From contig CACOYX010000005.1 of assembly GCA_902631535.1 (NCBI GenBank), positions 1 to 64,000 of the forward strand: a stretch of DNA of 64,000 nt, written 5' to 3'. This DNA is from an uncultured Pelagibacteraceae bacterium (GTDB lineage: Bacteria > Pseudomonadota > Alphaproteobacteria > Pelagibacterales > Pelagibacteraceae). Within the stretch, counting starts at the first letter, position 1, and every line of letters begins with the position of its first letter. The notes beneath the pieces are model-generated. The model worked only from the letters and a program-made list of their open reading frames with translations. It did no database searches and was not told the origin of the DNA. The translations under genes were made by a program, and so were the position numbers. Below, piece by piece: positions 22,758 to 62,500 of the stretch.

Positions 22758-24050
22758 TTAAGCTGCTAAAGCTTGTTTAATGTCTGCGATAATATCATCC
22801 GGGTGTTCAATACCGATTGATAATCTTACGTAACCTGGTGTTACACCTGCTGCTGCTAACGCTGCATCATCCAACTGACTGTGCGTTGTAGTAGCTGGAT
22901 GAATTGCTAAACTTCTAGCATCACCAATATTAGCAACGTGATATAACATCTTTAAGTTATCGATGAATTTAGCACCAGCTTCTTTTGTGCCAACATCCAT
23001 ACCAACTAAAGAACCATATCCACCTTGCATGTATTTTTTAGCTCTTTCCTTAATCTCACCTTGATGATTAGTAGGGTAGATAACATTCTTAACTTTCTTT
23101 TGTGTTTCTAAAAATGAAACTACTTTCTCTGCATTACTGCAATGTTGTTTCATTCTAAGAGCAACTGTTTCCAAACCTTGAATAATTTGGAAAGCATTGA
23201 ATGGACTTAAAGGAGCACCTAAGTCTCTCAATAAAACCACTCTTGCTCTGATTACAAAAGGAATATTAGCTCCTGTTAATTGAGGAACTGCATCTGCCCA
23301 TATTGCACCACCATAACTTTGATCAGGTTCATTTATTAATGGTTGTCTTTTTCTGTCTTTAATCCAGTCAAAGTTTCCACCATCAACAATAATTCCACCA
23401 ATTGAAGTACCGTGACCACCAATATACTTCGTCAAAGAGTGCATTACGATTGCAGCACCGTGAGCTAAAGGCTTACAAATTACTGGTGAAGCGGTGTTAT
23501 CGATGATTAAAGGTATACCTTTTTTTCTACCAATATCTGAAACTTCCTTAATTGGGAACACACGAAGGTAAGGATTAGGGCAAGACTCGCCGTAGTAAGC
23601 TCTTGTTTTATCATCAGTAACTTTTTCAAAGTTTTTAGGATCTGCAGGATCTGCGAATCTAACTTCAATACCTTGTTGTCTTAAAGTATTTTTGAATAAG
23701 TTTACTGTACCTCCATATAAATCAGTTGAAGCAACTATGTTATCTCCAGCTTGTGCTAAGTTTTGAATACACATCGCTGATGCTGCTTGACCTGATCCAA
23801 CAGCACATGCTGCAACACCACCCTCTAAAGCGGCTACTCTTTTTTCTAGCACATCAACCGTTGGGTTCATGATACGTGTATAAATGTTACCAAATTCCTT
23901 AAGACCAAATAAATTTGCAGCAGTCTCTGCATTCTTAAATTGGTAAGAAGTTGTTTGATAAATTGGAACTGCTACCGACGTTGTAGCTGGATCACTTCTG
24001 TAATCGCCGCCATGTAAGCCAATAGTTTCCGGATGTTTAAAATCAGCCAT
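22758..24050 (-). CDS. metY: O-acetylhomoserine (thiol)-lyase / PLP-dependent sulfhydrylase
   Basis: Cys/Met metabolism PLP enzyme; ETIGLHGGDYRSDPATTSVAVPIYQTTSY, HSLTKYIGGHG. Confidence 0.92.
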   Translation of the reverse strand: MADFKHPETIGLHGGDYRSDPATTSVAVPIYQTTSYQFKNAETAANLFGLKEFGNIYTRIMNPTVDVLEKRVAALEGGVAACAVGSGQAASAMCIQNLAQAGDNIVASTDLYGGTVNLFKNTLRQQGIEVRFADPADPKNFEKVTDDKTRAYYGESCPNPYLRVFPIKEVSDIGRKKGIPLIIDNTASPVICKPLAHGAAIVMHSLTKYIGGHGTSIGGIIVDGGNFDWIKDRKRQPLINEPDQSYGGAIWADAVPQLTGANIPFVIRARVVLLRDLGAPLSPFNAFQIIQGLETVALRMKQHCSNAEKVVSFLETQKKVKNVIYPTNHQGEIKERAKKYMQGGYGSLVGMDVGTKEAGAKFIDNLKMLYHVANIGDARSLAIHPATTTHSQLDDAALAAAGVTPGYVRLSIGIEHPDDIIADIKQALAA

Positions 24051-24106: not shown

Positions 24107-25165
24107 TTATGCTACGTTTCCATATTCTTTCATGTGTTTCGGTATTTTTTTATCTGAGCCGTACATGAAATGTTTACTCATATTTTCCCTAAATCTGCTT
24201 GCAGGAACTCTTAAACCAATTGCCTCTGCAACCTCACGTATATGCATTGGGCTAGCTCCGCAGCAAACACCGATGTATTTGACTCCTAAATCAAATACTT
24301 CTTTTGCAAAATTTCCAATCTCGTATCTATTACATTGTAATGGATCCATGGCAGTAGGGAAAGTTCTGCCATGAGGAGATGGACAATTACATCCATTATT
24401 ATCTGGAAGATTAAAAAATGTTGGGTGCTGTTCTGTTGTTCTGTAAGGAACAGGTAAAGCAGCAACATGACATTTAAGTTCTTTTCTTATTTCTTTAATG
24501 TAAGGAAGCATTGTAGCTGGACCTCTAAAACAATTTAAACCCACAACATCAGCTCCAAGTTCTTCTAACTTTTTACAAGTTTCCAGAATAGTGTAACCAT
24601 CTCTCATTTTATTTTCACCCATTGGGGAAATTGTAATTACTGATGGAAGACCAGATTTCTTAATTTCTTCAAGCGCTGTAAATGCTTCTTTAGCGTAATA
24701 AAAAGTTTCACCAATAATAAAATCAGCTTTCTCTTCTTTTGCCCATTTTACCATTTCGGCAAACATACTTTTAACCTGAGCCTGAATTTTTGGATTATTA
24801 TCTTCCCAAATATTACTGTTAGAAATGTTACCAGCCATTAAACTCACACCTAAGCCTTTTGGTGGATTGTCTGCACATTTTCTAGCAATCTTTAAAGCAG
24901 CTCTATTTAAAGGTTCAAGCAAATGTTCCTTATCAATCACTCTCATTTTTTCTCTGTGACCATTGTAAGTAAACGCTTGAACAATATTAGAACCTGCGTG
25001 TTGAAATTCTTTATGAAGATTTTCTAATACTTCTGGATATTCCAACGCCACTTCAGGAACAAATTCTCCTGAGGTAAGGTAACCTCTACGTTCCATTTCA
25101 AATAAATAACCTTCAGCACAAATTAAAGGTTGTTTCTTTAATGTATCTAATAAAATATTACTCAT
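24107..25165 (-). CDS. bhmT: Betaine-homocysteine S-methyltransferase-like
   Basis: Homocysteine methyltransferase fold; GLNCFRGP, GVCCGASPMHIR zinc ligands. Confidence 0.92.
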   Translation of the reverse strand: MSNILLDTLKKQPLICAEGYLFEMERRGYLTSGEFVPEVALEYPEVLENLHKEFQHAGSNIVQAFTYNGHREKMRVIDKEHLLEPLNRAALKIARKCADNPPKGLGVSLMAGNISNSNIWEDNNPKIQAQVKSMFAEMVKWAKEEKADFIIGETFYYAKEAFTALEEIKKSGLPSVITISPMGENKMRDGYTILETCKKLEELGADVVGLNCFRGPATMLPYIKEIRKELKCHVAALPVPYRTTEQHPTFFNLPDNNGCNCPSPHGRTFPTAMDPLQCNRYEIGNFAKEVFDLGVKYIGVCCGASPMHIREVAEAIGLRVPASRFRENMSKHFMYGSDKKIPKHMKEYGNVA

Positions 25166-25223
25166 ATTCTCTCCAATTAACCGGAGAGAGATGAAATCTT
25201 TTAAGGGGTTCTATTGATTTCAT
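25158..25223 (-). CDS. 21-aa upstream ORF MKSIEPLKRFHLSPVNWREYE, stop overlaps bhmT start (ATGAGTAA)
   Basis: AAGGAG SD (25235-25230) 6 nt from ATG; 8-nt overlap with bhmT. Confidence 0.6.
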   Translation of the reverse strand: MKSIEPLKRFHLSPVNWREYE

Positions 25224-25225
25224 CT

Positions 25226-25287
25226 ACTTCTCCTTTTTAGTACTTTGGCATATGCCAGGTGTACAATACGGTTCAAATACCCGGTTT
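25226..25287 (-). ncRNA. SAM-V riboswitch aptamer
   Basis: UUUGAACCGUAUUGUACACC...GUACUAAAAAGGAGAAG core; pseudoknot strand includes the SD. Confidence 0.82.
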
Positions 25288-25302
25288 AACTTTAGATTAT
25301 TC

Positions 25303-25332
25303 CAAAAAAAAACCACCGGCTAAAGCGGTGGT
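25303..25332 (-). terminator. Rho-independent terminator/attenuator ACCACCGCTTTAGCCGGTGGT(T)n
   Basis: GC stem followed by T9 run, between the SAM-II-like and SAM-V elements. Confidence 0.9.
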
Positions 25333-25337
25333 CATTT

Positions 25338-25396
25338 GACTTAAACGCTTTAGCAGGATTTGTTAAGCGCCCGCAAGTAGTAATAACTCGGCGCTG
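25338..25396 (-). ncRNA. SAM-II-like riboswitch aptamer
   Basis: AGCGCC...GGCGCU P1 and 3' GCUAAAGCG; placed upstream of terminator in tandem with SAM-V. Confidence 0.75.
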
Positions 25397-25401
25397 TGAG
25401 C

Positions 25402-25431
25402 TGTATATCAAAGAAATTGTATACCTGTCAA
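25402..25431 (-). promoter_or_regulatory. Putative bhmT promoter TTGACA-N18-TATACA
   Basis: Minus strand -35 at 25431-25426, -10 at 25407-25402; upstream of SAM-II-like element. Confidence 0.7.
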
Positions 25432-62308: not shown

Positions 62309-62349
62309 TTATATTTGACATTTTGGGTTTTTTCGATGAAAGTCAACGT

Positions 62350-62500
62350 GTAACGGGAGAGACCAATTTTTGGCGCCGAAGGAGCAACCACCCCGGAAAC
62401 TCTCAGGCAAAAGGACCGTTGCCGTAATAACTCTGGAAAGCAGGCTTTGGCCTCACCGAAGGATTAAATCTCTCAGGTACATAGACAGATGGGGTTAGAA
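62350..62500 (+). ncRNA. Tandem glycine riboswitch (two aptamers) upstream of gcvT
   Basis: GGGAGAGACC..GCCGAAGGAGCAA..CTCTCAGGCAAAAGGACCGTT and CTCTGGAAAGC..ACCGAAGGAT..TCTCAGGTACATAGACAGATGGGG. Confidence 0.95.

Follow-up and report, generated by a model that had tools for sequence, protein, structure and literature searches.

In the sequestor/antisequestor translational platforms of other riboswitches, one anti-SD strand is common to two mutually exclusive helices. At metY and mmuM, the SAM-V riboswitch (RF01826) is known to occlude the RBS directly, as an aptamer with an AAGGAG-type 3' end that lies a few nucleotides before the ATG and acts as an OFF switch on the translation of methionine genes. 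According to one review, the SAM-V of a tandem directly regulates initiation and always controls access to the RBS (PMC9481103); passages of Meyer 2009 place the SAM-V motif usually within ten nucleotides of a start codon, a position that is typical and not strictly defining (PMC2704228). The same passages give the order SAM-II, terminator, SAM-V, and bhmT in Ca. P. ubique.

Two other described systems resemble parts of the locus reported here. In the leader of the M. tuberculosis ppe2 B12 riboswitch, a riboswitch, a short ORF, and the main gene follow in series, and that uORF is translated and essential (PMC11260477), whereas the SAR11 uORF considered below is missing or broken in many relatives. 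At S. meliloti metA, the SD of a SAM-II pseudoknot lies far (74 nt) from the start codon that is used, and the abstract of that report mentions no second SD with a common anti-SD (PMC9373788), whereas the SAR11 bhmT start has an SD of its own. The aptamer, the tandem, and their association with bhmT are already known, and related ideas of translated leaders and distant SDs exist. We found no description of a spacer with two hairpins in the searched passages of Meyer 2009 and of other literature on SAM-V and its tandems.

We analyzed a 64,000-nt stretch of DNA, the window, on whose minus strand the order from 5' to 3' is a SAM-II-like aptamer, a terminator, SAM-V, a 64-nt spacer, bhmT, and metY (Table 1). 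The SAM-II-like match has an E value of 0.22 in a search space of 701 bases, and its position agrees with the SAM-II/SAM-V tandem at Ca. P. ubique bhmT in the passages that describe it (PMC2704228). Rfam matches to GcvB and sroD, which are sub-threshold and located over the terminator, were rejected as chance. The window bhmT scores below the cut-offs of the NCBIfam models for homocysteine and betaine-homocysteine methyltransferases. The genome that carries its tandem-riboswitch counterpart (G026) matches, in three SAM-V coordinates, the HTCC1062 map of Ca. P. ubique as given in those passages (PMC2704228).

Table 1. Features of the bhmT leader and operon in the window.
Feature	Position	Strand	Details
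SAM-II-like aptamer, first in tandem; sub-threshold	25329..25404	-	SAM_alpha RF00521, 17.5 bits vs gathering score 36
Intrinsic terminator, between SAM-II and SAM-V	25311..25333	-	GACCACCGCTTTAGCCGGTGGTT then T run
SAM-V aptamer	25227..25291	-	RF01826, 73.7 bits vs gathering score 41, full length (positions 1-66/66)
AAGGAG, SAM-V 3' end	25230..25235	-	64 nt from bhmT ATG; not the bhmT SD
Antisequestor 5' arm	25216..25233	-	GGAGA 25233-25229 and AGATGAAATC 25225-25216, one extra pair between
Antisequestor 3' arm and anti-SD	25183..25198	-	GATTTCATCT 25198-25189; anti-SD TCTCC 25187-25183
Sequestor hairpin with bhmT SD	25169..25188	-	CTCTCC 25188-25183, N8, GGAGAG 25174-25169
21-codon uORF of the earlier note	25158..25223	-	MKSIEPLKRFHLSPVNWREYE; lineage-specific, coding constraint undetected
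bhmT, homocysteine methyltransferase, 352 aa	24107..25165	-	71% identity to G026 tandem-riboswitch bhmT
metY, O-acetylhomoserine sulfhydrylase; same direction, downstream of bhmT	22758..24050	-	TIGR01326, 563.9 bits vs cut-off 495.1

The earlier note on this DNA had proposed that SAM-V controls a 21-codon uORF and reaches bhmT through translational coupling. Its reading of the letters is exact: AAGGAG is followed by six bases and an ATG at 25223, the uORF opened there terminates in ATGAGTAA on the bhmT start, this start lies 58 nt past the uORF ATG, and a CTCTCC-N8-GGAGAG hairpin holds the bhmT SD. In the window, the uORF starts at the riboswitch SD and stops on the main start, and the ten-nucleotide distance typical of SAM-V holds for its ATG but not for that of bhmT. 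The note was also right that the SAM-V AAGGAG is not the SD of bhmT, which has its own GGAG 5 nt before the ATG, and that SAM-V must act on bhmT from a distance. At metY and mmuM the aptamer ends a few nucleotides before the ATG; at the window bhmT the same 3' end is 64 nt away and can pair in a hairpin. The SD hairpin that the note described is one half of a pair; what the note had missed is that the CUCC of this hairpin is a complement of the SAM-V GGAG as well.

This one CUCC has two exclusive partners. Pairing with the SAM-V GGAG closes a long hairpin, in which the bases past that GGAG form the 5' arm and the partner arm ends in CUCC, and leaves the bhmT GGAG free; pairing with the bhmT GGAG hides it. 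The window leader folds better than its dinucleotide shuffles (z score of -2.7, or -4.1 without the AAGGAG), and the antisequestor hairpin has a z score of -4.1 against shuffles of its own. When each state was forced, the antisequestor (ON) and sequestor (OFF) folds of the window had energies of -18.3 and -20.4 kcal/mol, and the ON fold is predicted to be about 2 kcal/mol weaker in the window's clade.

From SAR11 genomes we assembled a set of SAM-V-bearing bhmT and metY loci, whose leaders are of three kinds. In the direct kind, only a few nucleotides separate the SAM-V AAGGAG from the ATG; it includes 39 distinct metY leaders, mmuM, and about 24 distinct bhmT leaders. The platform kind has a spacer of 50 to 75 nt and a second SD. 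Among bhmT leaders, 45 distinct ones belong here (the window's genus contributes 15), together with 30 metY leaders from the window's genus in which no bhmT intervenes. In the extended kind, seen in four leaders, the spacer is roughly 150 nt or more. The distance from the SAM-V GGAG to the bhmT ATG is 60 to 75 nt in all 45 distinct platform bhmT leaders, in each of which an SD-like GGAG, AGGA, or GAGG before the ATG was a condition of collection. The platform is absent from metY, mmuM, and the deeper-branching bhmT leaders, which use AAGGAG directly. One genome, G026, combines direct metY and mmuM leaders with a platform bhmT leader that also bears the spacer and both hairpins.

Both helices are present in nearly every leader, and the forced ON and OFF energies are mostly within a few kilocalories per mole of each other (for example, -27.1 and -27.7 kcal/mol in L062, -21.2 and -20.0 in L089, and -19.2 and -18.5 in L167). 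Compared with shuffles in which both ends were fixed, the long hairpin has a z score below -2 in 25 of 26 representatives, with a median of -3.6. The arm sequences diverge widely among lineages (AGATGAAATC, GAGCT, GTTGAACAAAT, and GATGAAC). Since a whole-spacer MAFFT alignment was unreliable in the stems, we compared the arms directly, excluding L223 and L116 from these statistics because they fit the platform poorly. Cognate arms pair at -10.1 kcal/mol and permuted partners at -6.2 ± 0.5 kcal/mol, and none of 20,000 permutations was as good, a comparison from which relatedness is not removed. Against column shuffles, paired cells were 86.3% versus 82.4% and the covariation score was 0.264 versus 0.203, and none of 500 shuffles reached the observed value of either measure; a slid control was only partly clean, since at a slide of -1 the covariation score was similar (0.280), with fewer paired cells (76.9% versus 86.3%). 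These values suggest that the helices are kept by compensatory change among relatives. We also found that barring the AAGGAG from pairing, as a stand-in for SAM, lowered the mean predicted probability of an open downstream SD from 0.44 to 0.01 across 75 leaders.

We propose, with a probability of about 0.6, that SAM-V at bhmT works through a two-hairpin translational expression platform of 60 to 75 nt; in SAR11, SAM-V before bhmT probably does not cover the bhmT ribosome site directly. At low SAM, the SAM-V 3' tail (GGAG and the next 10 to 12 bases) would pair with the downstream arm ending in CUCC, and because this antisequestor consumes the anti-SD, the bhmT GGAG would be left unpaired and bhmT translated. 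When SAM is bound, the aptamer would hold the GG of the tail, the outer pairs of the long hairpin would be barred, and CUCC would go to the bhmT GGAG, turning translation off. Passages of a study of bhmT SAM-V report that its 3' end is required for the binding of SAM and suggest that part of the SD is paired in the bound form (PMC6061858), so ligand and antisequestor would compete for the same bases, and AAGGAG would be part of either the SAM-bound aptamer or the antisequestor hairpin. The upstream SAM-II and terminator would add the transcriptional control already published. Such a platform would share with other sequestor/antisequestor systems an anti-SD in two mutually exclusive helices and would differ from them in that its antisequestor strand comes from SAM-V, whose 3' tail is itself the SD in sister genes, so that a GGAG copy competes with the true SD.

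The coupling model of the earlier note is kept as the main rival to this platform, although we consider it doubtful. It holds that SAM-V governs initiation at the 21-codon uORF, whose ribosomes open the hairpin around the bhmT SD and then re-initiate at bhmT, whose start overlaps the uORF, and it has a precedent in M. tuberculosis ppe2, where a riboswitch-controlled translated leader is followed by expression mainly through termination-reinitiation (PMC11260477). An AAGGAG placed 6 nt ahead of an ATG makes a good start site, and in the window's genus an ATG 3 to 6 nt past the SD opens the frame in all 15 distinct bhmT leaders. The note had named loss of this frame among relatives as grounds for refuting its proposal, and across SAR11 the frame is indeed not conserved; it is kept within the window's genus, but variation there tracks the RNA hairpin and not the codons. 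The ATG is missing from 19 of the 45 distinct bhmT leaders, which does not fit a uORF as the conserved link between SAM-V and bhmT. Among the 30 bhmT leaders from outside the window's genus, an ATG occurs 3 to 15 nt from the SAM-V GGAG in 11, compared with 8.9 expected from local shuffles, so that the uORF is not clearly above the chance expectation. Non-ATG starts (GTG and TTG) added almost no uORFs to the leaders. Of the 30 metY leaders from the window's genus, 3 have the uORF cut after 2 to 4 codons (L206, L218, and L222, from three species), and in two others the frame continues beyond the end of the stretch read. In the near-relative pairs L052/L087, L021/L089, and L120/L136, the ATG differs but the hairpins are retained by both members, and mapping the platform-with-ATG label onto the BhmT tree takes 7 changes, of which well supported branches force at least 5.

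In all 26 bhmT leaders that have an ATG, its frame stays open as far as the bhmT start or nearly so, versus about 43% for other frames of these leaders, a comparison that favors coupling and comes from few independent lineages. The stop on the bhmT start itself comes almost for free, since ATGAGTAA contains a stop in each of the two other frames. An apparent enrichment of uORFs over whole-spacer shuffles (11 seen and 0.8 expected) did not hold up: these shuffles blend the tail, rich in purines, with a pyrimidine arm free of stops, and we therefore tested ATG and openness apart, upon which the ATG excess vanished and only a weak excess of open frames was left. A lower accessibility of the SD in ATG-bearing leaders was a trend only (Mann-Whitney P = 0.18).

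Within the window's genus, hairpin loop sites are variable at 65% and arm sites at 0 to 12%, and the scored part of the 3' arm has zero variable sites in 13 aligned leaders. Codon constraint on the uORF was not detected in this genus, with 4 synonymous and 10 non-synonymous changes, close to the chance expectation (a synonymous share of 0.24), the same counts from another frame, and weak power from so few sites. The ATG sits in the stem, and this location in a hairpin arm is alone enough to make it look conserved. By its absences, early stops, and codon counts, the uORF is rejected as a conserved coding feature and reads as a lineage-specific extra, not a conserved link.

The folding model leaves more room for the uORF in the window's clade, where the predicted probability of an open SD without SAM is 0.03 at 37°C, 0.09 at 20°C, and 0.34 at 12°C. 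Since the sequestor dominates there, a melting ribosome would help, and coupling may act as an overlay on the two-hairpin platform. Because ON is predicted to be weaker than OFF in this clade, the switch there would depend on the antisequestor folding first during transcription, on low temperature, or on assistance by ribosomes, perhaps those translating the uORF.

Coupling appears to be the better reading for the rare extended leaders. In L061, L147, L163, and L166, AAGGAGAAAATG opens a stop-free frame of 44 to 48 codons that ends on or beside the bhmT start, with several stops in each of the other two frames. The encoded peptides have NxCS and other residues in common, at 34 to 36% identity to that of L061, and these leaders, which retain the long hairpin too, occupy three places on the BhmT tree. 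Further extended SAM-V leaders were noticed in L227, L228, L234, and L235. One tentative and rather unlikely picture is a layered series within one leader family, from SAM-V as the direct SD, to its GGAG reused as a decoy whose pairing sets a second SD free, to the GGAG that starts a translated ORF of 44 to 48 codons, which would bring a riboswitch, RNA strand exchange, and a translated uORF to bear on one bhmT start.

We think it quite improbable that SAM-V is inactive on bhmT here, with SAM-II and the terminator acting alone and the downstream hairpins passive. The model for the window's clade does predict an SD that is mostly closed in both states, and part of a study of sulphur limitation in Ca. 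P. ubique reports a 34-fold rise in bhmT mRNA versus 3.6-fold in the protein (PMC5069961). However, a full-length SAM-V is retained at 73.7 bits, and variable sites occur in the loop but not in the 3' arm or the anti-SD. Remote loading, in which the 30S subunit would bind at the SAM-V AAGGAG, serving as standby or remote SD, and be brought to the bhmT start by the folded spacer, is very unlikely: spacer lengths are similar to that of S. meliloti metA, where an SD within the SAM-II riboswitch is reported to be needed for a start 74 nt downstream (PMC9373788), but the window bhmT has a well-placed GGAG, other platform leaders also have an SD-like stretch, and a CUCC complementary to both GGAGs is kept although this model does not need it.

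If the two-hairpin platform holds, most of the SAR11 SAM-V bhmT leaders examined, including the one that matches HTCC1062, would have a ribosome site 60 to 75 nt away with its own switch, and constructs that end at SAM-V would miss the part that decides translation. The direct metY and distant bhmT leaders of one genome would then be a clean natural comparison of two platforms on one aptamer.

We also observed sequence differences between leaders of different genes. After SAM-V GAAC, all 39 direct metY leaders have T, and most direct bhmT leaders, like all but one of the 75 platform leaders, have C; judged by sequence, these are two gene-linked SAM-V subtypes. We rejected this C as a marker of the platform, since direct bhmT leaders have it too and it marks the bhmT-type aptamer. 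In the antisequestor loop (about 25215 to 25199 in the window), CCCTC or CCCCT recurs in bhmT leaders and is absent from metY leaders. In SAR86 and related bhmT leaders (L101, L102, L106, L122, L125, and L132), a SAM-II-like stretch is followed by a conserved TTCCCAGGATTTAA some 60 to 80 nt upstream of the bhmT start.

Genomes of the window's genus that have no bhmT at this locus (most of L171 to L173, L186 to L213, L218, L220, L222, and L223) retain the SAM-V platform with the bhmT-type aptamer (GAACC), and SAM-II and a terminator were seen in L171. In these bhmT-less leaders, the platform now precedes a 15-codon mini-ORF whose stop overlaps metY, and bhmT was probably lost from the operon in these genomes. 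In L025 (G236:C7:29563-29628), SAM-V and both hairpin arms are present, with the second SD absent and bhmT undetected in the locus, and this is perhaps an orphan leader left after gene loss. The window itself has a mini-ORF between bhmT and metY (24093 to 24043, minus strand) of 16 codons, MKKETTRETVREEING, with an SD of AAGGAGG and a stop that overlaps the metY start (ATGGCTGA); it is open in 40 distinct forms within the genus, which show no clear codon constraint. Elsewhere in the window, we noted an alpha-type (permuted) tmRNA at 460 to 758 on the minus strand and a glycine riboswitch aptamer at 62344 to 62428 on the plus strand.
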